Position numbers and translations under genes: made by a program
The notes under the pieces: model-generated
The model's input: only the letters and a program-made list of their open reading frames with translations
The model's database searches: none
What the model was told of the DNA's origin: nothing
Shown: one piece after another, positions 4,977 through 41,741 of the stretch
How positions within the stretch are numbered: the first letter of the stretch is position 1
How the letters are laid out: each line of letters starts with the position of its first letter
DNA from: Pseudovirgaria hyperparasitica
Lineage: Eukaryota > Ascomycota > Dothideomycetes > Acrospermales > Acrospermaceae
DNA: 64,000 nt
Reading direction: 5' to 3'
NCBI RefSeq assembly: GCF_010093815.1
Contig: NW_022985559.1
Location: 1,490,695 to 1,554,694 of the forward strand

Positions 4977-7329
4977 CTAATACGTACGCTTGAACGGAGG
5001 AACTGCCTTGCACTCCGCCTCGTCTAGGGTGTTCGCCACCACGCTTCTGTAACTCAAGTCAACCTTTGAGTGCGGCTTCTTTTGCCAACTAAGAGTGTGC
5101 TTCATCCAGTTCTCGTCATCACGGTCGGGATAGTCCTCGCGGGCATGAGCGCCACGGCTCTCCTTGCGGTTGGCGGCACTCTCAGCAGTTTGCACCGCAC
5201 AGGTGAGTAGATTCCTTAGTTCAAGCGTCTCAACAAGGTCGCTGTTCCAGATCATACTGCGGTCCTTGGTGCCGACGTCCTTGAACTTGGCGTCAACGTC
5301 GTGGATTCTGCGGACACCTTCGTCGAGAGATTCTTGAGTTCTGAACACGCTGACATCAGTTTGCATGACCTTTTGCATCTCAGAGCGAATATCAGCAGTT
5401 GGTAGATGACCATCGGCAGTACGGATCTGGTCAATTACGCTGATACCATCGGCACCAGCGTCCGCGGACACAGGTCCGACGGACTCGCCAGGACTGAAGT
5501 TGTCGCGAATGGTGTGAGATACAGCACGGCCGAAAACGATCAGATCAAGAAGTGAGTTGGCTCCGAGACGATTCGCTCCGTGGACAGAGACACAGGCAGC
5601 TTCACCGCAAGCAAACAGACCTGGAACGACCTGATCCTTACCGGACTCGTCTACAGTTAGAACTTCTCCGGTGTACTTGGTTGGGATACCACCCATGTTA
5701 TAATGGACGGTGGGTAGGACGGGAATCGGTTGCTTGCGAACATCAACACCAGCGAAAATCGAAGCAGTTTCCGAGATACCTGGCAGACGTTCATGAAGAA
5801 TCTCTGGTGGCAAATGACTTAGTTGCAAGTAAATGTGGTCCTTGTCTGGGCCGACACCGCGACCTTCGCGGATCTCCATAGTCATGGAGCGGGATACGAC
5901 ATCGCGACTGGCAAGATCCTTAGCAGTTGGCGCATAACGTTCCATGAAGCGCTCTCCTTCTGAGTTCAGAAGATAACCTCCTTCTCCTCTTGAGCCCTCG
6001 GTGATCAAACATCCAGCGCCGTAGATACCGGTGGGGTGGAACTGTACGAATTCGAGGTCCTGATTGGGGAGACCTGCGCGGGCGACCATGGCCATGCCAT
6101 CTCCGGTACAAGTGTGGGCAGATGTACAGCTGAAGTACGCACGTCCGTACCCACCAGTGGCAAGGACTGTGTGTTTAGCCAGGAATCTGTGCAAAGTCCC
6201 GTCTTCCTGGTTATAAGCTAGGATACCCTTGCAAACACCATCCTCCATAATAAGATCGGTGGCGAAGAATTCGATGAAGTATTTGGTGTTGTGGCGGAGA
6301 GATTGTCCATAGAGAGTGTGAAGCAGGGCGTGTCCAGTGCGATCAGCCGCAGCACAGCATCTGTAGGCCTGACCACCCTTTCCATACTTCTGGGATTGAC
6401 CACCAAAAGCTCGTTGATAACTACTATAGTCAGCAAACGACATTTTCGGCTACGGTCGACAAGCTCTTACATGCGACCATCGTCCGTTCTCGAGAAAGGA
6501 CATCCATAGTTCTCGAGTTCGATAACACTTTGAGGAGCCTCTCTTGTCATGTAATGGATAGCGTCTTGATCTCCAAGCCAATCCGAGCCTTTCACAGTGT
6601 CGTACATATGCCATCGCCAATCGTCCTCATGCATGCTGTATACTTGTTAGATTTGGAGACGGTTTCGCGTGATCGATACTCACTTTCCAAGAGCCGCGTT
6701 GATCCCTCCCTGCGCCGCCACAGTGTGTGACCGTGTAGGAAACAGCTTCGAAACACATGCTGTATTAAAGCCCGCCTCGGCCAGACCAAATGCAGCCCGC
6801 AGACCAGCACCTCCAGCGCCAACAACTACAGCATCATATTCGTGGTCTATGACGGGGTATTTATGGCTGATCGCCCCGGACGCTTCCTTTGCGCGAAGCG
6901 GTTGACTCGTAATAATGCGCTGTACGGCTTTCGTAGATGAAAAGGATCTGTTCTGCTGTTGAAGGCTCTTGCATATCTGGACAGAACAATGTATTAGCTG
7001 ATATGTGCATATGTAAAGCGTAATTTGTATATTTGTAGAGCGCTCACGCGTCCAATGGCTGACAGTCGTGCGAAGAGCTTTGAAGTTGCGTCTGTGAATG
7101 CGGAGGGCTTGCGGGGGTCTCGGTGGACGCCACCAAGATCGTGCATGGGAGGAGTCCTACCTGGGAGCCTCTGGCAAGTCCCCGGTGCCTTATGGAATTC
7201 ATCTTGGGTACGACCGGACGGCAATGTTGGAGGGAAAGTCGTCTGTTTGGGAGGCTGGAGTGAAGAGGTTGTAGGCCTGTGGACGGATCATCGACGTCGC
7301 AATTAGCTTACCTTCGCCTGCCTCGCCAT
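4977..7329 (-). CDS. SDH1: Succinate dehydrogenase flavoprotein subunit, mitochondrial
   Basis: Catalytic FAD subunit of respiratory complex II, oxidising succinate to fumarate in the TCA cycle. Exons read in order: a basic N-terminal presequence with [15 protein letters not shown] and the [14 protein letters not shown] lead-in; dinucleotide fold [16 protein letters not shown]; the covalent-FAD histidine motif [17 protein letters not shown]; an exon starting [16 protein letters not shown]; then the long 3' exon (4977 to about 6420) with [22 protein letters not shown] and a C-terminal VPPFKRTY. The mature protein is complete. The 5' end is uncertain: ATG at 7329 (MARQAK, then an intron of about 55 nt) and ATG at 7146 both splice in frame into the presequence. 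I list the longer model. The gene lies head-to-tail with uL3. Confidence 0.92.
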
Positions 7330-10216: not shown

Positions 10217-11986
10217 ATGGTGGAAAGCGATAACCAGACAACGTGGAAATTCACGCAGTACGTACCATTTCGTGCGCTCCGCCAGCTGCTGGACCCGAAA
10301 CGGCCGTATCGTTGGTCTTTTGTTATAAAATGCTTTATTGTCCACTGACTTCCTTGTCTAGATGCTTTGGTGATAAAGGTGACGTAGAGGATATCACAGA
10401 GGGTACAGTCTTCCTTATCAGTCCCATACCTAAACACTATTAACGCGGCGTTAAATTAGCCGACATCATATCAACAGTCGAATTTGACCAAACGGGCAAC
10501 TATTTGGCCACTGGTGACAAGGGTGGCCGTGTTGTGCTGTTTGAGCGCAATGAATCAGTCAGTACCGATTCACGAGGGTCAGACCTCACACTCGCTACTA
10601 TTACTGACTTTGCCCAGAAAAAAACTTGCGAATACAAATTTCACACAGAGTTTCAATCACACGAACCAGAATTCGATTACCTGAAATCGCTCGAGATAGA
10701 AGAGAAGATCAACAAGATTAAGTGGTGTCGCAGGCAGAACGCATCTCACTACCTCCTATCAACAAATGACAAGACTATAAAGTTGTGGAAAGTATTTGAG
10801 AAGTCTCTAAAGGTTGTGGCTGAGAACAATCTCTCTCATGAGTTAACTCCGGGAGGGGTTCCAGGAGCTGGGGGTCCCGTAAAAAACCCAGGAACATACT
10901 TTCGCAATGCGTCAGATCTCAAGCTCCCAAGATTAACACATCATGACACCGTTGTTGCGGCGGTACCGCGGAAGACGTATGCGAATGCTCACGCATATCA
11001 CATTAACAGCATTTCGGTGAACAGCGATGGAGAGACTTTCATTAGCAGCGACGATCTGCGTATCAACTTATGGAACCTGAACATTCAAGACCAGAGTTTT
11101 AACATTGTTGATATCAAACCAGCGAATATGGAGGAGCTGACAGAAGTCATTACTGCTGCGGAGTTCCACCCTCAAAGCTGCAATTGGTTCATGTATGCGA
11201 GTTCGAAAGGAACCATCAAGCTCGCTGACATGCGAGAGAGCGCATTATGTGACCAACATGCCAAGCGTATGTTCTCTGTATAGAACTAGGAAGAGCATGA
11301 AAGCTAATCGTTGATACCAGAGTTCGAGCAAGAAGAGGATCCATCATCGCGATCTTTCTTCTCGGAGATTATATCCTCAATTTCCGACGTTCGATTTTCA
11401 CATGATGGTCGATACATCCTCTCCAGGGACTACCTTACTGTTAAGATCTGGGACGTGAACATGGAACGCACCCCTGTCAAGACGATCCCAATTCACGAAC
11501 ACTTGAGGCCACGTCTCTGCGACACGTATGAGAACGATAGCATTTTCGACAAATTTGAAGTTGTTTTCTCAGGTGATGCCAAAAACGTTATGACTGGCAG
11601 CTACAACAACAACTTCATGATTTACCCTTCGGACCCTGACAAGGACACAGAGGTTGTTCTACAAGCCGACAAGTCTGCATTCAAGGCGAAGAAAGTCGGT
11701 ATTCCAACACCTATGAATTCATCAACAAGCCCAACGACAGGCAACAAGAAGAATAGCTCTCGGGCAAACAGTCCGGCCGCTGGTGCCGTTGGCCAGGGAC
11801 AGAGGATGCGAAAAGAAACCGACGCTGATCAGATCGATTTCAACAAGAAGATTCTGCACATGAGCTGGCACCCGTTCGAAGACAGCATAGCCATCGCCGC
11901 GACCAACAACGTAAGTATACTCACCAGCACGCACGCCCACGCATACTAAAATCGTCGGCCAGCTCTTCGTCTTTTCGGCGCTATGA
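10217..11986 (+). CDS. Protein phosphatase 2A regulatory subunit B (B55 family)
   Basis: WD40 beta-propeller subunit that gives PP2A its substrate choice; the yeast homologue is Cdc55 (mitosis, morphogenesis). Start [14 protein letters not shown] at 10217, then a small exon [13 protein letters not shown], then [25 protein letters not shown]. Family landmarks follow: [58 protein letters not shown] and [19 protein letters not shown]. An insert rich in S/N/G at about 11700-11800 precedes the last blade, usual in fungi. The last exon is short: after the intron at about 11911-11961 only LFVFSAL and the stop remain. Four introns in all. The family call is very secure. Confidence 0.95.
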
Positions 11987-14093: not shown

Positions 14094-14593
14094 ACCTAGA
14101 GTTGTCGTTTTCATGATGAAGTTGGACCAGATAGATATAGAGTTAGTAGTAGTAGTAGTATTGGTCACAAATCGTTCTTCGAGGCCATCTGAAAACGATC
14201 GGTCTATTTGGGGATCTACTGCTACTAGATTGACACATGAATCGTGTGCACGTCTCGGCATGATCAACGTAGAACAAGCATGAACCAACAATATGTTCCA
14301 AACAGTCGACAGCAAAGGAAATGAGAAAGCACCACGTGACAAAGCACAAAAACACTTCAAAGATTATTGCATATGTGCACTCCGTTCCACTGTTTCTAGG
14401 AGAATGTAATGCAATATGTGAGAGACATGCAGAGTATGAGGAAAGCATGCTTCTCAAGTGTTGACAAACGCCGGCGACCCCCATATTATCGAGATACCTT
14501 ACTTGGCAAGGTTTCGTTCCAACTTTTATTCCGTAGATAAAACTCAAATTGGATACAAGCGAGTCGGCAGCTTAAGACGATTTTCGACACCAC
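14094..14593. other. Convergent 3' flanks of the Yea4-like gene and eIF4A
   Basis: The two genes end facing each other 500 bp apart. A short GTA/TAG trinucleotide run sits at about 14143-14162. No gene is evident; the stretch should hold both 3' UTRs. Confidence 0.5.
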
Positions 14594-15991
14594 TTAAATC
14601 AGATCTGATCACATTGTCAGCTAATTGTTGCCAGTAAAGATGCGTCCTCTGAGACTTACCGGCCACATTCATGGGCATCTCCTCAATTTGTGTGCTGTAG
14701 AATTGTTCAATTTCGCGCATCATTCGTACGTCATCAGCAGTGACGAAGTTGATGGCAACACCCTTACGACCGAAACGGCCACCACGACCAATGCGATGGA
14801 TGTAGTTCTCGCGGTTGGCAGGCAAGTCATAGTTAATGACCAGAGAGACTTGTTGGACATCGATACCACGGGCCAACAGATCAGTAGCGATGAGCACACG
14901 GGATGAACCGGAGCGGAACTCCTTCATAATGAGATCACGCTGGGCCTGGTCCATGTCTCCGTGCATGGCGGAGACGGTGAAGTCACGGGCAGTGAGCTTG
15001 TCGGTAAGCCAATCGACCTTTCTCCGGGTGTTGCAGAAGATGACGGCCTGTGTGATGGTGACGGTCTCGTAAAGATCGGAAAGGGTGTCTAGCTTCCAAT
15101 CCTCCTTCTCAACAGCGATGTAGAACTGCTTGATACCTTCGAGAGTAAGCTCGTCCTTCTTGACGAGGATACGAACGGGATCGCGCATGAACTTGGTGGT
15201 GACCTCAAGGACGTCCTGGGGCATGGTGGCGGACAGAAGGACAACCTGGGTAGACTGGGGGAGCAGCTGGAAGATGTCGTAGATCTGCTCAGTGAAACCG
15301 CGGGACAACATCTCGTCAGCCTCGTCGAGGACGAACATTTTCATGGAATCAGTCTTCAGGACGCGGCGCTGAATCATGTCCTGAACACGGCCAGGAGTTC
15401 CAACGACGACGTGAGGGCCATCTCCAAGAGCCTTCATGTCATCACGGACGCTGGTACCGCCGATACAGGCATGGCATTCAATGTTCATGAAATCACCGAT
15501 GGCGATAACGACCTTCTGAATCTGCTGGGCAAGTTCGCGAGTGGGGGCAAGGATCAAGGCCTGGCAAGCCTTGACATTGGGGTCAATCTTCTGGAGGACA
15601 GAGATGGAGAAGGTGGCAGTCTTTCCAGTACCTGACTGAGCCTGCGCGATAACGTCGGAGCCTATGGAGAATCAGTAACCATGTCCGAACGTGGATGTAT
15701 GCGGAATATGTAGACCCACCCTTGATGACGGGCATGATAGCGCGCTGCTGAATCGCAGAGGGACGCTCGAAACCGTAGGCATAAACTCCACGAAGGAGCT
15801 CAGCCTTCAGGTTCATGCTGTCGAAGGAGTCGGTAACTTCATCGTAGTTGGACTCGATCTGACCTGGTACCGAGAGCGTTAGTGGATGCAAATTTGCGGC
15901 AAAATAATAGCTTCGCCCAGAACGCAACGAGTGCGCCCTGCGAGAACCTTCACGTACCCTCTGGGATATCTTCGAGGCCTTTTTCAGCCAT
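14594..15991 (-). CDS. TIF1: Translation initiation factor eIF4A (DEAD-box RNA helicase)
   Basis: ATP-dependent RNA helicase of the eIF4F complex that unwinds mRNA leaders. First exon [12 protein letters not shown] (ATG at 15991), then [19 protein letters not shown]-motif region [12 protein letters not shown], motif I AQSGTGKT, Ia PTRELAQQ, motif [11 protein letters not shown], motif III SAT, the C-terminal lobe with [24 protein letters not shown] and motif [15 protein letters not shown]. The last codons DLI-stop are spliced from a tiny terminal exon (stop at 14594-14596). About 397 residues, standard. The next gene upstream is divergent, 574 bp away. Confidence 0.96.
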
Positions 15992-29669: not shown

Positions 29670-31548
29670 AGATCGGGGTCTCATTCGACTCCAGGACCAG
29701 CATATATAATGTCTATGATGATGGACGGCACTTGGGTTGGTCCGCGTGCAGAAAGTGCTGGATCCTTTGCGAGGCACATCAAGGAAGCGTTTCATACACT
29801 AACCAGCCGCCATGGCACCATCCAAGGTGAATGCACTCCAGATGAGCTGTCGCTGGCGCCTATGCATCTATGAAGTAAGATGCAGGAACATTCGCTTTCC
29901 GATTCGCACAGACCATGGCAATGTTCTGCCAGGGGGGCTTCTAAGGTCCGGCAGCACATGCAAATACCCGGGACACCTGGTGCAGTAATCGATATACCAC
30001 CGCAGAGTGACGGTATCCGATTTGAATCCATGCATCTGTGCCAGTAACGTCGGATGGAGAGGCGGGACGGCGTAGAGAAGGGAGTACAGGGCGGCTCGAA
30101 GGGTAGGGATGTATATTACGGCCTGCGCAAAACTTGGTTTACAGTGCGCGAGAATACGACATGAGTCTCAGGGGTGTTTTGAGTGGGCATTTGCTACAGC
30201 AGCAGTGGAGGTGATGGTGGTCGCAGGGGTTGGTTTATTGCTGCGTATTGTTACCCGGCTCTTTTCCCTATTACAGCTCTCCACACAAGGGTTCGCGCCA
30301 CAGCAACGCCACACAATGTCATCTTTGCCAACTTTTGCTCCTCGCCCGGCCGCATCCTCGCTTTCTTCCCTTGTCACTTGCAAAAATTGCAACTCTATGG
30401 TGGGGCTGGTGAAGTCAGACAGATATGCAGAATGCCTGCTTGTGCTTCTCATCCCTTGTAGCGACTCGGGTCGTGGATCGTGATACGCTCGTTCCTTTGC
30501 TTGGGGGATCCGCAACGCAAAGGACGCGTCTCACAGTTGGGCCCTCGGAAAATCAGAAGCAGCACGGCGAAGAGAGAGAAAGGCAAAGTTGGCATGGGAT
30601 TGTTGAAGGAGAGTCATGGCTTCTGCTGTGCTTGTCTTGCAAGCGAAACGTTTCGCATGCTATATCCCCGGTTGACACTTCGACATTCACTTCGCACTTT
30701 ATATACGCATACAGTAACCATATATTGCTAACAGCGGCTCAGGGCATCTCCACGCGACAACCGCCATCTGCCACAGACTCCCGCCAGGACTAGTAGATCT
30801 TCAAAGACGCCTCATAACATTGTGGATCCCTGCTGCTGTCTGCCAAGTTCGCTTCCGGAGACGTCAAGCCACTTCCAACCGCTATCTCCATATCGAGTCG
30901 TCTCCATCTTCGATGAGGATCACGAAATCGACCAGTCAAACATATATTCCAGCCACACTTGCTCCATCTGAGGCTTGACGTCTATCCTCAAAAGTACATG
31001 CCGCTCCAAGAGCCCCCTCCCCCCTGAGGCAAGGCCTGTGATACAGTGACTGCTGCTGCAACCATGCTGCCCTACTCGTCTACACCTACCCCGGCCATAC
31101 CTCCACTCAACCCCGTTTGTTCACCCGTGATGCTGGAGCAAAGTGACGCAATACCATCCACCTGCTTCCCCGACATGCTGTGGCTTCCGCGTAACATCGA
31201 CTTCACCCAGAAGTCGTCGAGTTGCAGCCACAAAAACAGGTTTCCCCATGCTATCCTACCCTTTGCCGACCAGTCAAACCCGATCACGCCTCTGTTGGAG
31301 GCCATGACTCTAGCAAAACACGACACATGAACGCTTGGGGCCCCCTCCTCGATCCGGTAATCAGCTCCTCATCATTGCTATACAAGCTACGTCATGGTGA
31401 GAGGAGCTCATGCTGCCATCATAACCAATCTATGCTTCCCCCCAGTCCAAGTGTTATCCCATCTCGAACCCCATCCTCATAAAACTCCCCAACTGCCCCT
31501 CTTTACACTACAGCCTTCTTTTCCTCACACGTCTCTGACGGAATTTTT
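29670..31548. other. Long intergenic / probable leader of the repeat-protein gene
   Basis: 1879 bp. Several open frames exist (30109-30483, 31046-31330) but none shows a domain, consistent codon use or splice logic. From about 30940 the sequence is CT-rich and ends with a GAATTTTT patch just before the ATG at 31549. A long 5' UTR with or without introns is the simplest reading. Confidence 0.4.
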
Positions 31549-34500
31549 ATGAGTACCCATTCCTCCATATCCTCCAGTAGCTCTTACACCTACTACTCGT
31601 TTCCCCCGACACCCACCAGATCCTCCCCGGGCTCTACTTCTAATACTCCCACCCCAAAGCCTGCTAGTAGTCGAAGTTCCAAAGCTATGCCATCCCCTGC
31701 TGCTGGAAAGGGCAGTGACGCACCTCGCACCCCTACAAAGCTCGGTCGTAAGCCCCAGTCACAGGCCACGTCGAAGCTTGGCAAGGCTGGCGAGCAAGCG
31801 AAATCTACGGCTGCCAAGGGCGGATCGGATCCGCCCAAGTTGCCATCGAAGCCTGAGGCTGGCGATGTAACGGAGAAGGCCGAAGACGTTTCGAGCAAGG
31901 CACAAGAAGTTCCGGAGAAAGCACAGGACGTCTCAGAGAAAGCACAAGACATCCCAGACAAAGCACAAGAAGTCCCAGACGAGGCAAGTAAAGCCACCAG
32001 TGACACCGCCGACGAAACAACGGGCAAAGTCTCCCAAGCCGGAGATGACGCCAAGGGCGCCCTAGAAGAAGTCGAGCCGAAGCCAATCGATGAAGACGAA
32101 GAAAAGGAAACCACAGAGAATGTAGAAGAGACTGCCGACGACACCGCTGACGATGCAACCGTGAAAGCTGGTGACACAGCCGACGAGACCGACGACACGC
32201 AGGAGGAAGCCGGCACCAAAGATGGCGGTGCACAAAAGACCGGCTCGGGAGTCCTGAGTGGTGCCAAAGGCCTAGCTGGGCAGGCTTCAAATCTTGCTGG
32301 AAAGTCGGCCAAGGATCCGAAACAAGCGGCGGAAGATCTACCAGAAGACGCACAAGATGCTGCCGGAGAGACTGCTGAGGGTGCCAAAGACACGACAGGA
32401 GAGGTCGCGAAAGATACCCAGGATACTGCTGAAGATGCTAAAGATACTGCTGAGGATACTGCCGAAGATGCTAAAGACGCGGCTGAGGATACCACCGAAG
32501 ACGCCAAAGCCACTACTAAAGATACCACCGAAGACGCTAAAGACACTGCGGAGGACACTGTAGAAGACACCAAGGACACTGCAGAAGAAACTGTAGAAGA
32601 CGCCAAGGACACTGCAGAAGAAACTGCAGAAGACGCCAAGGACACTGCGGAAGAAACCAAAGACGGAGCCGGCGACACTGCAAGCGATACCGTCAACGGC
32701 GTCAAAGACACCGCCGAGGACACCACCGGCCAAGACCTACCCGACATCCCCGGTCTCGAGCTCCTCAAAGGCCTCTCCCCAGACGAGGACGGCCTAATCA
32801 AGGACGCAAACGGCGACTACATCGGCAAGCTCGCCGAAGGAGACGCAGAAGACCTCGTCGGCTACGAAATCGGAGACGACGGCGAGATCCTCGACGACGA
32901 CGGCGACCTCGTCGGCCGCTGTGAATTACTGCCTGAAAAGGTCCAAGCACTCAAGGACGAGGCTACGAGTGGCGCGGCGCCAAAGCTGCCCGGTTTGGAG
33001 ATTCTGAAAGGCTTCACTGTTGATGCGACCGGGCTTGTTCTTAATGAGGATGGGGATACCATTGGCCAGCTTACTGAGGGCAATCCTAGGGAATTGATGG
33101 GACGTGAGTTCAATGAGAAGGGCGAGATTCTCGATGACGATGGGAATGTCATCGGTCGTGCCCGTGTCCATGAAGAAGCTGCCAACCTCGTTGATGACGT
33201 CGAAGATGGCGCGGAAGACGCTACTGATGCTGCGGATAATGCTGCTGACGGCGTGAAAGACAAGGCTGTTGATGGCGCAGAAGAGAAGGCTAAAGATGCC
33301 GTTGACGGCGCCAAGGACACATCCGAAGACGCCGAGGAAGCTGCCGAGGGTATTGAAGAAGACCTCCCTGGTGTCGAAGCTCTCGAGGGCAAAGAGATCA
33401 ATTCCGAGGGCGAGATCCTCGACGAGTCAGGCGAGGTGATCGGGAAGCTTGCCGAGGGCGACATCGCAGACGTCAAGGGCCTTACCGTGAACGAGAAGGG
33501 CGAGGTCGTCGACGCCGAAGGCAACGTGCTCGGCAAAGTCGAACTCGCTGAAGGCGCAGCCGAGAAACTCAAGGATGCCTCCAGCCTCATCGACGTGCGC
33601 ATCCTCGAAGGCCTGAAGGTTAACAAGAAGGGCAAAGTGCTCGACGAAGAAGGAGAGGAGATTGGCCACCTAACCGAAGGCGAGACCAAGGACGTCGCCG
33701 GCAAAACCATCAACGACAAGGGCGAGATCCTCGACAAGGAAGGAAAAGTCGTTGGCAAAGTCGAGATTACCTCTGGCGATGCCGCGATCGAAGCCATGAC
33801 TGCTCTCAAGGAGCGTCTCGGTGAGACGGCGGAGCCTGAGCCTGAGCTTAAAGAAATCACACCTGAGCTTGATATTCTTGAGGGGCTGAAGGTCAATAAG
33901 AAGGGCCAGGTCCTGAATGAGGATGGAGAGCCGATTGGCGAGTTGATTGAAGGAGAGCTTGCGAAATGTGCTGGTAAGAAAATCAATGAGAAGGGAGAGG
34001 TCGTCGATAAGGATGGGAATGTTCTCGGCAAAGTCAAGACACTCCCGCAGGAGGTTGAGGTATCTCCCGAAGACGCCACGGAGACTGCTGAAGGCGCCGT
34101 TGAAGGCACCGGAGAGGAAGCTGAGGGCGCTGCCGAGGACGCTCAGGCGACTGCTGAGGGAGCCGAAGGTGCAGCTGAAGATGCCGAAGGCGCTGCCGAA
34201 GACGCTGAAGGCGCAGCGGAAGACGTTGCAGAAGACGTCGAAGACAACCTGCCCCCTCTCTCCGCACTCGAAGGCCTAACCGTCAACAAGGCCGGCAAGC
34301 TCATCGACAGCAAAGGCACAGTCATCGGCGAACTGACAGAAGGCGATGCCAAAAAGCTGTTCAAGGCCGGCACCACATGTGACGCAGAAGGTCAGTTCTG
34401 GGACACCAAAGGCCACGTTATTGGTCGGGCCAAGACTGTCCCTGTCGAAGACCCCGACGAGGATGCCCCGTTTGCTGGTCTCGAGGGCTTGATTGTCGTC

Positions 34501-36926
34501 AAGGGAGGGCTGGTCGAAGACGAGAATGGTAATACTGTCGGACAGGTGACTGAGGGAGATGCGAAGAAGCTTGTTGGCCGTGCTGTGGACGAAGATGGTG
34601 ACATCATCGACAAGAAGGGCTCTGTTATCGGCCATGCAGAGCGCTACGAGGAGCCGGAGGAAGTGCAAGAACAACCCGAAGAGGAAGCTCCCGCCGATCT
34701 ATCTTCACTCGTAGGCAAGACAGTTAATAAGCAGGGCAATGTCATTGGCGACGAAGGTGTACCAATCGGACGTCTGGTCGAAGGGAACCCGAAAGAACTT
34801 GCTGGCAGGAAGATTGACGAGCAGGGTCAAATCTGGAACGACTCAGGAAAGGTGATTGGTCGCGTAGAATTGATCCCGGAGACGGAGCGTGAAGCCAAGC
34901 CCGAAGGACCGTTCTCCGGCCTCGAAGGCCTCCGTGTCGTCGAGGGCGGGAAGATTGCCGATGAAGATGGTAACGTGGTAGGCGAGATCGTCGAAGGGAA
35001 CGCCAAACGCCTGATTGGTCTCTCCGTCGATGAAGATGGTGATATTGTCGACAAATACGGCAACGTCAAGGGCCATGCCGAACCTCTCCCTGAGGAAGAG
35101 GACGAAGCTCCAGTCGATCTCTCCATCTTGGATAACAAGACCCTGAACAAGCAAGGCTTTGTCGTTGATGAGAATGGCATTCCATTTGGCCGTCTCGTCG
35201 AGGGCAATGTCAAGGAGCTCGCTGGTCGCAAGTGTGATGGCGAGGGTCAGATCCACGGTGATACTGGGAAGGTTGTCGGACGCTGCGAGCTCATCCCCGA
35301 GAACGAACGCGTCTCCCGTCCCGAAGGCCCCTTTGCCGGTCTCGAGGGTCTTGTCGTCAACAAAGAAGGCAAGGTCGAAGACGAAAACGGCAACGTTGTT
35401 GGTGAAATCACCGAAGGCAACGCCAAGAAGCTTGTTGGCCACAAGGTGGATGAGGATGGAGATATCATCGACAAGCACGGCAATGTCAAGGGACATGCCG
35501 AGCCATGGGAGGAAGAGGAACCAGAAGAGGAGGCTCCCGTAGACCTCTCTGCCCTAGCCGGTGCTATCGTTAACAAGGCCGGAAACGTGGTCGACGCCAA
35601 CGGGAATATTGTTGGAAAGATCTCTGAAGGTGATGTCAAGAACATGATTGGCAAGAAGGTCGATGGAAAGGGCCAGATCTGGGACAATTCTGGCAACGTC
35701 ATCGGACATGCTGAGCTCGCTGAGGGTGTGAATCAAGGCCCTGAAGGCCCATTTGCAGGCTTTGAGAGTCTCTCTGTCGCCAAGGATGGAACCATCGTAA
35801 CAGCCGACGGCTCGATCGTCGGACGCCTTGTCGAAGGTGACGCCAAAAAGCTCGTCGGATACAAGGTCGACGAGGACGGCGAGATCCTCGATAAAAAGGG
35901 TAACTCGATCGGCAAAGCCGAGCGCTGGGAACCGGAAGAGAAGCAGCGGAAGGTCAACCCCATGTCCGGCCGCCGCGTCAACAAAGAGGGCGAAGTCCGG
36001 GACGAGGACGGAAACATCCTGGGCCGCCTCACTGCCGGCGATCTCGGACACTGTACCGGCTTCGAGATCGACGATAACGGATACGTTGTTGACAACGACG
36101 GCAACAAGGTCGGCGAGGTCACTTTGCTGGAAAACATCGTCGAAGAGGAACCCGAGGCGGACGAGACAGAAGAAGACAAAAAGAAGCGTGAGGACGCCGA
36201 GCTCGCCAACAAAATGGGCAACATCTGCCAGCAAACCCTCGAGCGCATCCAGCCCGTCCTCAAACAAATCACCGATGTAAGTCGAACCTCCTATCCTACT
36301 CATGAATCATCCACTAACCCATTCCCCCCCCACAGCACATCGAAAAAGCCGACCGCACCCCACGCGAAGAACTCGACGAAGAAGAACTCGTCAACAACGT
36401 CAAGCCCCTCATCGAAGAAGGCTCGCGCATCCTGCAAGAATGCAACGGCTCGCTACGCGGCCTCGACCCGGACGGCCGCATCGCCGCGCAAGCCAAAGGC
36501 CGCTCCGGCACCCGCGAAGCCACCCCCGAGGAATACCGGCTCGCAGACCTCCTCAAGGAACTCACGTCCAACGTCGTCACCACCATCGACAACGCCAAGA
36601 AGAAGATCCAGGACATGCCGCATGCGAAGAAGAAGCTGAATCCGCTGTGGGGTCTGCTGTCCGAGCCGCTGTTCCAGATCATTGCTGCTGTGGGACTGTT
36701 GCTGACGGGTGTGTTGGGGTTGGTGGGCAGACTGCTGAATGGGCTGGGCTTGGGCGGGCTGGTGAATGGGCTGTTGGGGGGTTTAGGTATCGGCAAGCTT
36801 CTGAGCGGTCTTGGGCTCGGGAGCGTGACGGACGCGCTTGGGGGTGGTAAGGACAAGAAGAAGAGTGGTGGTGGTGTGAGTAATATCCCGATTGTGGGTG
36901 GGCTGCTTGGTGGTGGTGGAAAGTGA
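31549..36926 (+). CDS. Giant LEA-like / DUF3659 repeat protein with DUF6987-type C-terminus
   Basis: About 1,770 residues from two exons joined across an intron at about 36277-36335. Order of parts: a Ser/Pro/Thr-rich head (residues 1-90); an acidic LEA-like region with 11-residue repeats; about 14 units of roughly 70 residues (32735-36140), each a pair of half repeats with consensus VNKxGxVxDxxGxxIGxLxEG; and a helical C-terminal region starting about 36190 (NICQQTLERIQPVLKQITD) that ends in a glycine-rich hydrophobic tail (LLTGVLGLVGRLLNGLGL). The repeats match what I recall as DUF3659, and the C-terminus DUF6987, in proteins called LEA-domain proteins in Aspergillus and relatives. Strongly acidic overall. 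The hydrophobic tail suggests membrane anchoring. Function unknown; stress protection or a structural spacer are the obvious guesses. No enzyme motif. Confidence 0.88.
32422..32664 (+). repeat. LEA-like 11-residue (33-nt) tandem repeats
   Basis: Within the giant protein, about seven successive 11-residue units of the type AEDAKDTAEDT, with variants TEDAKATTKDT and VEDTKDTAEET. The hendecad period with alternating acid and Lys/Ala positions matches group-3 LEA helices. Third positions differ between units, so the array is not a fresh DNA duplication. Confidence 0.85.
34468..35940 (+). repeat. Higher-order 420-nt repeats in the DUF3659 array
   Basis: The units here alternate between two kinds. 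Kind A opens PFAGLEGL and ends GHAE; kind B opens LSxL, has NKQG, and ends in a Glu/Arg/Pro linker. Kind A starts at 34468, 34909, 35329 and 35749, spacings of 441, 420 and 420 nt. The array is therefore 3.5 copies of a 140-147-residue A+B block, which implies segmental duplication within the gene. Confidence 0.85.
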
Positions 36927-38063
36927 GGAATAATTCACTTTGGGTAATAAGAGCTTGGGTGTATGTTGGGTTTTCCTTCCAAAAAGTTGTATAATGTCTG
37001 TCTACCTGTGGCTTCTGTTTCGACTTGTAGTTGATGGCTCTTTTGCTTTTGCTTTTCGCCTCACGACCTGCGACGCGGATACTCTCTTTTGTTCATCATT
37101 TATGTCCTTTGGCTCACATACTTGTATATCTTTGGCGTTTGCTTGACGATGCCGTCGATGCGTGTACGACTCTATATTCTTCTGTTATTTAGCATAGCAT
37201 ATCATTTCCACTTCACACAACCTGCTACTGAGTTGAATTATTCCGAGTGTAGAGTATCTCGTAGTTCCTGGCTCCCTTCTTCACGAGGCTATCCCTCTTA
37301 CTAATAATAATATCAGGGGAGGAAGGTATTGTATGCTTCTTTGGGTACCTTTGAATTCCCAACTGTAGTACACGGCTCCTCCTTATAAAGTATATATGAT
37401 CTGATAGAAAGATCTATAATAAGTCACTGAGCTACTGACCCCTACATGTCCACCCTCCATTGCTTCCATCTTCTAGTAGACATACTATGATCTCGAATCT
37501 TGCTAAGCCATATAGCTAAAAAGCAAGAGTTTTGAAGTATGATGGAGTGTATATAGATAGAGTAGTAATATAAATGTAGGCACTGTTTCGTTCTTAGTAT
37601 ACATCTATCCGTTTCTAGTATATACATCGATTAACATATGCCTAGATAGACCAATTAGTATTAGTAGCAACGACGGAAAACGTCATGTCTGTGGAAAATG
37701 CTCGGATGACATTAAATGGCGAGGAAGCGGTATTTTTGGTCCTATGGTAGCATGGACTAAAGCTACTGGAGCCTCCAAGTGTCGAACGAAGTCTTCCTAA
37801 TAGCTGCCTAGCAGGGATCCAACCGGTCAATTGTGGGGGTTTTGGTGTTGTGATTCCAACGAGATCATTTCACGCGCCCCTCCTGTTCGTTGAGTCTTGC
37901 CCCACTTACCCCTCCTCGCCTCAAGTTGAGTGTATATAAAGCTCGCTCTTTGCCCCTGCGCATTTCTCCCCCAACGAAATTGAACTTCTTTCTAACTATC
38001 CAGACAGTCTTTGTTATACTTGTTTGCTCATTCTCCTTCGTCAACAAACACAATTTGTACGCA
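36927..38063. other. Intergenic between the repeat-protein gene and THI5
   Basis: About 1.1 kb. The first 400 bp look like a 3' UTR. 37380-37660 is AT-rich with TATATAG-type words. 37860-38060 is the CT-rich THI5 promoter and leader, with a GTATATAAAG TATA-like box at 37931-37940. No gene seen. Confidence 0.5.
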
Positions 38064-38129
38064 ATGGCTCAAAGACCACAGTTCGGCGCCGCGACTATCT
38101 GGACCTCAAGACAGCTATCGACTCGATAG
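38064..38129 (+). CDS. Upstream ORF in the THI5 leader (21 codons)
   Basis: ATG at 38064 opens a 21-residue frame (MAQRPQFGAATIWTSRQLST plus R) that ends at TAG 38127-38129, four bases before the riboswitch P1 helix. In Neurospora NMT1 the TPP riboswitch acts through splicing that keeps or removes upstream ORFs; this one is placed to do the same. It is unlikely to be a functional peptide. That it is in the mature leader is inference. Confidence 0.55.
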   Translation: MAQRPQFGAATIWTSRQLSTR

Positions 38130-38132
38130 AAG

Positions 38133-38314
38133 AGAGCATGGCGGGTGTCCCCGTCCGCACTACCACACACCATCCGCAGCCCCCCCCCCTTTCACAATCC
38201 ACACTGCTTGTGAGATGGGCTGTTGATGGCTGGGTGGTCAGGTCGTGGGCGCGGGTTCTGAGAATATACCGCTCGAACTTGAGTCAAGATAATGCTTGCG
38301 CAAGAACATGCTCT
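38133..38314 (+). promoter_or_regulatory. TPP riboswitch (THI element) in the THI5 leader
   Basis: Thiamine-pyrophosphate aptamer. P1 closes AGAGCATG (38133-38140) on CATGCTCT (38307-38314), a perfect 8-bp match. The 5' strand continues GCGGGTGTCC. The conserved pyrimidine-sensor loop CTGAGA is at 38258-38263, and the pyrophosphate-sensor half reads CTTGAGTCAAGATAATGC then TTGCGCAAGAA, close to the canonical CCTGATCTGGATAATGCCAGCG pattern split over P4/P5. The P3 arm is long, as in fungal THI elements. A likely 3' splice site (CTTGTAG, 38365) lies between the aptamer and the THI5 ATG at 38383, so control of splicing is expected. Confidence 0.92.
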
Positions 38315-38382
38315 TTTCCCCTTTTCTCCCGAGGTAGTGTGCGCTTGGCTTACGGCTGGCTTGTAGGAGAGAGAAGACTATC

Positions 38383-39620
38383 ATGGCCACGGACAAGATC
38401 ACCTTCTTGACAAACTGGTACTGTGGAACTGTGGTGCAATGTGCGGGCTGTGGGAGGTGTATGCTGATATGTAGGCTAGGCATGCGACGCCGTACCACGC
38501 CCCGCTGTACCTCGCGCAGAAGCTCGGGTATTTCGCCGACGAGGGCATCAAGGTTGCCATCCTGGAACCCAACGATCCGAGCGGTACGTATGTGTGCTGA
38601 AGTGATATTTGGCGTGATGACGGCAGGGGCAGTTGCTGATGTTGCTATAGATGTCACCGAGATCATCGGCTCCGGCAAGGTCGACATGGGCTTCAAAGCC
38701 ATGATCCACACGCTCGCGGCCAAAGCACGCGATTTCCCCGTCACGTCCATCGGCTCCCTGCTCGACGAGCCCTTCACCGGCGTCGTCTATCTCAAGGACT
38801 CGGGCGTCACGACCGACTTTCGCTCGCTGAAGGGCAAGCGGATCGGCTACGTCGGCGAGTTCGGCAAGATCCAGATCGACGAGTTGACCAAGTACTACGG
38901 CATGAAGCCGGACGACTACACGGCCGTGCGGTGCGGCATGAATGTCAGCAAGGCCATCATCCAGGGCGAGATCGACGCCGGGATTGGTCTCGAAAATGTG
39001 CAGATGGTTGAGCTAGAGGAATGGTTGAAGGGCCAAGGAAGACCGGCAGACGACGTGCAGATGCTTCGTATCGACGAGCTGGCCGAGCTGGGCTGCTGCT
39101 GCTTCTGCTCGATCCTCTACATCGGTGAGTATCCCATCCCTTACAAGCCCCCCCCCCAGTACATGAACCACACAAACTAAGCAATCCACCCCCCCCTCCA
39201 GCCAACGACGCCTTCATCGCCGCCAACCCAACCAAAATCAAGTCCTTCCTGCGCGCCGTCAAGCGTGCGACAGACTACACCCTCGCATCCCCCGCCGAGG
39301 CATTCGCGCAATACATCGCCATCAAACCAACCATGGACACGCCCGTCAACCACAAGATCTTTGAGCGCTCGTACGCGTACCTGTCCGCCGACCTCAAGAA
39401 CGTGCAGCGCGACTGGGACAAGGTGACGCGGTACGGCAAGCGGCTCGGGGTCTTGGACGCCGCGTTTGTGCCCAACTACACCAACGAGTATCTCGGCTGG
39501 GTGGTGGAGGAGGAGAGTGCGGATCCGATGGGTGATCAGCGGCGGATGGTGGAGTTGCAGAAGGATGTTGCGTGTAGGGGTGGGTTCAGGAGGCTTCAGC
39601 TAGGTCGTGTTGCTGGTTAA
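38383..39620 (+). CDS. THI5: HMP-P synthase (pyrimidine precursor of thiamine), THI5/NMT1
   Basis: Single-turnover enzyme that makes 4-amino-5-hydroxymethyl-2-methylpyrimidine phosphate from PLP and one of its own histidines; cytosolic, thiamine biosynthesis. Exons start [12 protein letters not shown], then introns 38418-38479, 38584-38650 and 39125-39201. Key motifs are intact: [13 protein letters not shown], the PLP lysine and donor histidine in [33 protein letters not shown], and the iron-binding CCCFC in [14 protein letters not shown]-terminal [11 protein letters not shown]. About 340 residues, as in relatives. Regulated by the TPP riboswitch immediately upstream. The codon composition switches to G-rich near 39410. 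Confidence 0.95.
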
Positions 39621-40611: not shown

Positions 40612-41741
40612 TCATTTGGCATGGTTGACGATCTGATGGTATATGTCATCGGGTATCTTCGGCGCAAAGGACGTCGCTATCTGTATGATGCGACTCGCTT
40701 GAAGTGGAGGAAGAGCGCGGAGGATCTGGTTCGGACTGCTCGGAAGCACGTCAGGTTAACCCTCCCACAACCTGGTAGAGCACTCACCTGGGATTGTCCA
40801 GCAGCTGGTCCCGAATGAGCACCAACTGCGCAACAATACACAGAATATTCAGATGCGGCCCATACGCAAACAGAAAGTCCCACAACTGCAACACCTCCGG
40901 CAACGGCGGCGTACACGCACACATCGTCAGCACCGACGCAAACGCATAGATCTCCGCATGCATCCCCTTACTCGCCAGATGCTCCGCCAGCCGCGGATCC
41001 ACAATCTCCAGCACGGAATCCACCAGCCTCAACCCACGATGCACCCCATCCATCGAGCCCCTCACATAGCCCGGACACTCATACGTAATCAGCCGCTCAA
41101 ACGCCGCAAACGCCTCCGTCTCGCTGCGCGCCGCATACAGAAACGGCGCCGCGAGCACATTCATCCCCTGCACATACCCGACCTGCCCGCTGCCGTCGGT
41201 CCGACTACTTGAGGCGTCCGTCTGCCGCGCCGAGAACACGTTCGACGGCCTGCTCTCCGGACTGCCTGCGCCGCCCTCGGACAGCGTCGGCGGGCTCTGC
41301 CACCCGTTTATGCGCGCCTCGTGCGCGTCGTGCAGCCGCCATGCTACGGCGTTGAGGACCCGCGTCAGGCTGTTCTCTGTCACGCGCCGCCGGAACAGCG
41401 GGTCCGTGGCCAGGGTGCGGAAGGTGTCGTTGCGGATTTTGGCGTAGGCTGGGGATGCGCCCTGGCGCACGAGGTCGAGGTAGGCGGAGGTTTGGAGCGG
41501 AGGGACGGAGAGGAGGATCAGCCAGATGTAGACTCGCAGCTCGGACTGCTCAGGGTGGTATAAGTTAGTGTTGGGGGGTTGGTTTGGTTGTGGTTTTGGA
41601 GGGGATTTGTCTGTTACGCACCATGCCATCGCTGTTTCCGGGTATGCCCTGTGTGAGGATCGTGTAGCGCAGGTCGTCGAGGCCGCGTTGGAGGTCGTCG
41701 GACGGTGGGCCCTTGAGGAGAAGTACGTCGAGGTTCGTCAT
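40612..41741 (-). CDS. BUB2: Bub2-type TBC-domain GTPase-activating protein
   Basis: GAP for the Tem1/Spg1 GTPase that, with Bfa1/Byr4, restrains mitotic exit or septation until the spindle is positioned. Three exons. First exon, ATG at 41741: MTNLDVLLLKGPPSDDLQRG, ending at GNSDGM. Second: SELRVYIWLILLSVPPLQ through QVGYVQGMNVLAAPFLY (TBC signature with the glutamine-finger YVQGMN), ITYECPGYVRGSMDGVHRGL and LQLWDFLFAYGPHLNILC. Third, after an intron at about 40736-40785: PNQILRALPPLQASRIIQIA to the stop at 40612. The arginine-finger region has diverged around a short Ser/Gly insert (PSNVFSARQTDASSS). About 340 residues, typical. The Bub2 assignment is strong because of the conserved C-terminal half. 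Confidence 0.92.

Follow-up and report, generated by a model that had tools for sequence, protein, structure and literature searches.

Fungal TPP riboswitches have been divided into classes (Mukherjee et al. 2018, PMC5882874), and according to that work the control of THI4 or NMT1 by a riboswitch is ubiquitous, occurring in all classes of Ascomycota but three. The TPP riboswitches of NMT1 are described there as residing, together with uORFs, in an intron of the 5'-UTR, with P4-P5 pairing to a region beside a 5' splice site; pairing of the riboswitch with the region of the second donor is also described in PMC5997356 and PMC7404189. In Botrytis, alternative 5' splice-site events of thi4 and nmt1 are reported to be up-regulated (PMC11900860). 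In Type II, the long-distance pairing type exemplified by Neurospora NCU01977, the description in PMC5882874 concerns a 650-900-nt intron of transporter genes, in which an RGCGGYRRY element and the P1' strand are used.

Here we analyzed the leader of a THI5/NMT1 gene located in a window of 64 kb, i.e. the whole stretch of DNA under study, which is fungal as judged by its genes and introns. Computation supports the aptamer, the THI5 gene, the reading frames and two predicted competing folds. The reading that we favor, with a probability of about 0.6, is that the leader contains an intronic TPP riboswitch, in which TPP controls the removal or retention of one intron by way of an anti-aptamer pairing of the first upstream reading frame, uORF1. 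By gene, place, uORF and acceptor the leader fits Type I, with a putative intron that is delimited by motifs. As in Neurospora crassa NMT1 (Type I), the gene is THI5/NMT1, the aptamer lies in a presumed intron of the 5'-UTR that also contains a uORF, the acceptor is located just before the coding start, and P4-P5 is complementary to the upstream leader. Type I features present as motifs are the location of uORF1 downstream of S1 (38057), and an AG (38365-38366) just before the ATG (38383). When compared with the published description of N. crassa NMT1, however, the THI5 leader lacks a convincing proximal donor, the stretch complementary to its aptamer is a long one, with 31 predicted pairs, and belongs to uORF1, and a second reading frame, uORF2, starts from P1 and overlaps THI5. 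The leader also resembles NCU01977, in that some of the aptamer is predicted to pair far upstream, with an element close to the distal donor, but here it is mainly P4-P5, plus part of P1', that would do so. With the Rfam family RF00059 (bacterial thiM, thiC and others) the aptamer shares P1, P2, P4, P5, UGAGA, the UAAU loop and GCG; it differs in that its P3 measures about 112 nt, its P4-P5 junction is longer by one base and its setting is presumably intronic.

The THI5 gene and the TPP aptamer

All features of the gene and its leader lie on the plus strand of the window. The gene (38383..39620) starts with the ATG at 38383 and has four exons encoding a product of 343 aa; in the gene model its introns are located at 38418-38479, 38584-38650 and 39125-39201, with lengths of 62, 67 and 77 nt. 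The preliminary description had assigned the gene 3' of the leader to THI5/NMT1, and the matches of the joined-exon product agree with this: NMT1 in Pfam (E 1.4e-77) and, in PDB, 4esx (THI13; E 3.4e-153, residues 1-338), besides the solved THI5 enzyme. The translation contains the CCCFC motif and KAMIHT, which we take to be important in THI5. A TATA-like box, TATATAAAG, can be read from the sequence at 37933..37941, and its position would place the start of transcription near 37961-37970. A scan of viral contigs with THI5 as query gave no match.

Several other genes of the window could be recognized. On the 3' side of THI5, and convergent with it, lies a gene for a RabGAP-TBC domain protein (40787-41737, minus strand; Pfam E 3.4e-34). 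Also on the minus strand are a succinate dehydrogenase flavoprotein-like gene, encoding a flavoprotein with FAD_binding_2 and Succ_DH_flav_C domains (4980-6449), and a gene for a DEAD-box helicase with a Helicase_C domain (14547-15671). A very long open frame at 31483-36639 (1718 codons from stop to stop) is rich in A/E/D/K/T segments, with recurring VNKEGKVxDENGNVVG-like units, and gives the impression of what is presumably a stress-type repeat protein.

The aptamer extends from P1 to P1' at 38130..38317 and is supported by its fold, a sub-threshold Rfam match, a descriptor and shuffles. The 5' strand of P1 (38130..38140), which holds the AUG of uORF2, pairs with 38307-38317; the perfect 8-bp helix noted previously (38133-38140/38307-38314) is indeed present and longer still, comprising 11 pairs, one of which is a G-U pair. 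The 5' strand of P2, GCGG (38141..38144), has CCGC at 38269-38272 as its partner, and the P3 arm of about 112 nt (38147..38258) follows, with a GUGAGA at 38210 buried inside it. The thiamine-ring binding motif CUGAGA (38258..38263) is unpaired in the predicted fold. The segment 38278..38304 contains P4 (CUUG/CAAG), P5 (CAAG/CUUG), the loop AUAAUG and GCG; AUAAUGC stands at 38289, and hence GATAATGC at 38288. The core motifs of a TPP aptamer are thus all present, i.e. GAGA (within CUGAGA at 38258), UAAU in L5 (38290-38293) and GCG in J4/5 (38298-38300), and the earlier claim of a complete aptamer, with CTGAGA at 38258 and GATAATGC at 38288, was confirmed. No such confirmation was obtained for a long P3 peculiar to the lineage: fungal TPP aptamers are reported to have a mean P3 of about 150 nt (PMC11683625), so that 112 nt is ordinary.

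The predicted fold of 38130-38320 has an energy of -78.5 kcal/mol (z -4.07), and none of 200 shuffles was equally stable. Three strongly conserved core pairs (C38142-G38271, U38279-A38303 and A38287-U38296) are changed on both sides and still paired, as read by hand against the Rfam consensus printed in the alignments. The aptamer also has some unusual traits. Its P4-P5 junction (38282-38284) contains one inserted base, AGU instead of AU, because of which the G-G separation of J4/5, counted by hand from G38281 to G38300, is 19 rather than the reported 18; the length of this junction also differs at the bacterial locus L003, there by deletion. By hand reading, a U-U mismatch adjoins the first pair of P3. 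GAGA is followed by A, which is also the base found at the E. coli thiM locus (L001), whereas the fungal motif is described as GAGAU (PMC5882874).

At gathering scores, a search of the whole 64 kb window with Rfam gave no matches. Thus, the covariance-model check that had been proposed for the aptamer failed at gathering, but it did yield a sub-threshold match to RF00059 under permissive settings (34.8 bits versus a gathering score of 54.3; E 3.8e-05 for 551 bases). This match puts the 5' half of the aptamer at 38220, i.e. in part of P3. On fungal aptamers with a P3 of more than about 60 nt, matches to RF00059 are reported to be often incomplete and to end within P3 (PMC11683625), and the low score is probably due to the 112-nt P3, threaded onto the wrong 5' half. 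Because RF00059 often fails on a long fungal P3, we wrote a descriptor of the P1-P2-P3-P4-P5 architecture and conserved core in which the length of P3 is free and one inserted base is tolerated. The descriptor was not blind, as it was composed after the THI5-leader sequence had been seen; in the first pass, a cut-off of 16 was applied to the window and one of 14 to the bacterial loci. The THI5-leader aptamer matched this architecture with a score of 48.60. Eight bacterial TPP riboswitches, all Rfam-positive, scored 48.64-54.78, with the oddities of an improbable 5' half at L006 and a 4-nt junction at L003 and L008. Seven of them adjoin genes annotated as thiM, thiC (two), thiO, thiD, TenA family or thiamine-binding YkoF protein; the neighbor of the eighth, L004, is an ECF transporter component. 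Proteins of the TenA family act in thiamine salvage. The alternative 5' half at 38220 was rejected, since the descriptor favors P1 at 38136 (48.6) over a placement in P3 at 38230 (43.7).

It might be argued that the element is a degenerate or chance resemblance that does not bind TPP, as its Rfam score is below gathering, it carries the inserted base and the U-U mismatch, and its descriptor score is a shade under the lowest of the eight bacterial loci. We consider this very improbable, given its location before THI5, the poor performance of RF00059 on fungal aptamers with a P3 longer than about 60 nt (PMC11683625), and the results of the controls: the maximum descriptor score over 80 shuffled windows was 40.0, and elsewhere in the window, on either strand, the best separate match scored 37.6. 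A strict pattern of the aptamer core occurs once in the window versus a mean of 0.000 in 200 shuffled windows, and a looser one once versus a mean of 0.28. Moreover, when the 3' half was kept fixed and the upstream DNA shuffled, 5 of 20000 cases produced P1 and P2 helices with no fewer than 7 and 4 Watson-Crick pairs, respectively; the number rose to 12 of 20000 with a P1 of 6 and to 241 of 20000 when G-U pairs were counted as well.

Upstream reading frames and splice signals

The unspliced leader contains six upstream AUGs, at 38064, 38138, 38215, 38226, 38292 and 38308. The first opens uORF1 (38064..38129), which is taken from the list of reading frames and encodes the 21-codon peptide MAQRPQFGAATIWTSRQLSTR; as noticed before, it lies upstream of P1, with its ATG at 38064, its stop ending at 38129 and a product of 21 aa. 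Between its end and the THI5 AUG lie 253 nt. The second opens uORF2 (38138..38410; 90 codons), which begins within P1, in its 5' strand. In unspliced RNA uORF2 runs across the THI5 AUG in a different frame, its end lying 28 nt beyond the point where that AUG begins. It would be a stronger block than uORF1, because ribosomes starting there cannot reach the THI5 AUG by ordinary scanning. Both uORF2, with its overlap of the THI5 start, and the predicted pairing between uORF1 and the aptamer are new with respect to the preliminary description.

The candidate for a distal 5' splice site, UUU/GUACGC, is located at 38057..38062. It is the sole GU among the five between 37960 and the first upstream ATG that has a purine at +3 and a G at +5, and its GTACGC resembles the donor GTACGT of the coding intron at 38584. 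Its pairing with U1 is weak, however (-0.4 kcal/mol): 58.7% of the 3694 GU sites on the plus strand are at least as good, and it ranks tenth among the 21 GU sites in 37960-38370. Four donors taken as real, three from the THI5 model and one near 11267 that was picked by eye, gave -1.4 to -8.9. Downstream, a branch-point-like CTTAC (38349..38353), whose A lies 14 nt before the end of the AG, precedes a candidate 3' splice site AG at 38365..38366; a CTNA motif is found 11-21 nt before the AG end in all three coding introns of THI5. As motifs, the donor and the acceptor are thus present where they had been placed. The resulting candidate intron (38057-38366; 310 nt) spans both uORF1 and the aptamer, in line with the earlier proposal that splicing from this donor removes both, and its removal would leave none of the six upstream AUGs, in a spliced leader of only 112 nt (assuming a start at 37961), so short that the absence of AUGs is by itself weak evidence.

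The weakness of donor 38057 raises the question of whether splicing is involved at all. In an unspliced leader, TPP might act through the aptamer on translation or on RNA stability, with the six upstream AUGs open to direct regulation, and Type IV, of which 13 instances are described (PMC5882874), likewise operates without splice signals. This seems improbable to us: unlike Type IV genes, THI5 has introns, its leader does contain donor, branch and acceptor motifs, and an unspliced THI5 leader would always carry the overlapping uORF.

A strict two-donor switch of the Neurospora type (Type I) is a more serious alternative, although we regard it as rather unlikely. Under this model, which is the one published for NMT1 (PMC5882874, PMC5997356), TPP would shift splicing from 38057 to a proximal donor, leaving the uORFs in the mRNA. 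Candidates for such a donor exist at 38145 (U1 energy -6.0, within the best 4.1% of GU sites) and 38210 (GUGAGA; -4.4, within the best 15.9%), and the use of either would keep uORF1 together with an out-of-frame, overlapping uORF2. However, 38145 belongs to P2/J2-3 and would be closed by TPP, and 38210 is buried in P3 whether or not the aptamer is enforced (mean unpaired 0.15 in both cases). Site 38245 lies in P3 as well, and the three sites are mostly paired in either condition. The GU at 38081 falls within the predicted anti-aptamer strand, but it is a very poor donor (+0.5), the use of which would fuse uORF1 in frame to THI5 as an 11-residue extension. Thus, among the GU sites between uORF1 and the apex of P3, U1 energies and folding revealed no convincing second donor. 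Each of the six later donors (38145, 38210, 38234, 38242, 38245 and 38255) would retain uORF1 and the start of uORF2, and for four of them uORF2 would be out of frame with THI5; it would be in frame for 38242 and 38245. The preliminary suggestion of a Neurospora-like splicing switch therefore holds as far as the gene, the aptamer and the uORF in a candidate intron are concerned, but its distal donor is weak and no convincing second donor was found.

Predicted competing folds and the proposed switch

Folding predicts two competing structures of the leader, the aptamer itself and a duplex between its 3' half and uORF1. When P1 was penalized (the suppression of P1, or of P1 and P2, was imposed by soft constraints), 38071-38110 and 38278-38316 formed 31 pairs, which are arranged in eight runs, or 32 when one outlying pair is included. 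The predicted anti-aptamer strand in uORF1 (38071..38110) rests on these constrained folds and on folds of the growing transcript, in which the uORF1 region and the aptamer's 3' half are paired at transcript ends 38290-38310 and P1 takes over at 38314. There is a register shift: in the prefix ending at 38300, 38060-38071 and 38080-38085 pair with 38274-38300, and the prefix ending at 38308 shows the 38071-38110/38278-38316 register. The latter prefix has 22.9 expected pairs between uORF1 and the aptamer versus 3.0 in shuffles, and as many were reached in 2 of 200. The duplex has an energy of -29.9 kcal/mol. Equal strength was reached in 7 of 5000 cases of dinucleotide shuffling, in 17 of 5000 when uORF1 was recoded synonymously, and by 41 of 3435 segments from elsewhere in the window; the paired segments had been picked after seeing the fold, so these figures carry selection, and a broader test of the duplex gave only a modest result (34 of 1000).

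Relative to the free ensemble, the rival fold is less stable by 0.5, 4.6 or 6.2 kcal/mol, depending on the choice of ends. In the full leader from 37965, the openness of donor 38057 is 0.41 both in the free and in the aptamer-enforced state and 0.40 without P1. A difference between the states is seen only with a 5' end at 38040, where the openness is 0.25 with the aptamer enforced versus 0.40 with P1 penalized. Since the full-length fold already favors the aptamer without ligand, and the openness of the donor is unchanged, a switch of this kind would need co-transcriptional timing.

The one-intron riboswitch that we favor could then operate as follows; we infer that TPP binds, that these splice sites are used, that the response runs in this direction and that translation is repressed. 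At low TPP, the nascent uORF1 segment (38071-38110) would pair with 38278-38316 in the 3' half of the aptamer, which would stay open; the 310-nt intron (38057-38366) would be spliced out, all upstream AUGs would be lost with it, and THI5 would be made. Binding of TPP upon completion of the aptamer would lock P1, P2, P4 and P5, and the pairing with uORF1 would be lost; splicing from 38057 would drop, and the retained leader would expose uORF1 and the overlapping uORF2, so that translation of THI5 would be blocked. It is conceivable that the uORF1 pairing also aids splicing, as by a hand estimate it would cut the path between donor and acceptor to about 65 nt (14 + 50), which matches the lengths of the other THI5 introns (62, 67 and 77 nt). 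This conjecture is not supported by the sampled donor-acceptor paths, which scarcely differ between the states: 30.7 (free), 27.8 (without P1) and 31.1 (without P1 and P2) in the full leader, and 17.6, 19.1 and 19.1, respectively, with the short 5' end. Counting against the one-intron model are the weak donor 38057, the modest outcome of the broader duplex test and the inserted base in P4-P5, as well as donors 38242 and 38245, which put uORF2 in frame with THI5 and hence create no block. We put forward only tentatively, as a possibility that we find somewhat doubtful, that uORF1 doubles as a translational block and as an anti-aptamer strand permitting splicing, that P1 carries the start of uORF2, and that a single donor is used while the intron is remodelled.

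The control of THI5 by TPP in a fungus is to be expected, given the near-ubiquity of such control in the classes of Ascomycota as reported in PMC5882874. The standard Rfam model misses the THI5-leader aptamer at threshold, which shows how such elements escape annotation. The THI5 leader gives a concrete two-state model in which the uORF and the predicted anti-aptamer would be the same bases.
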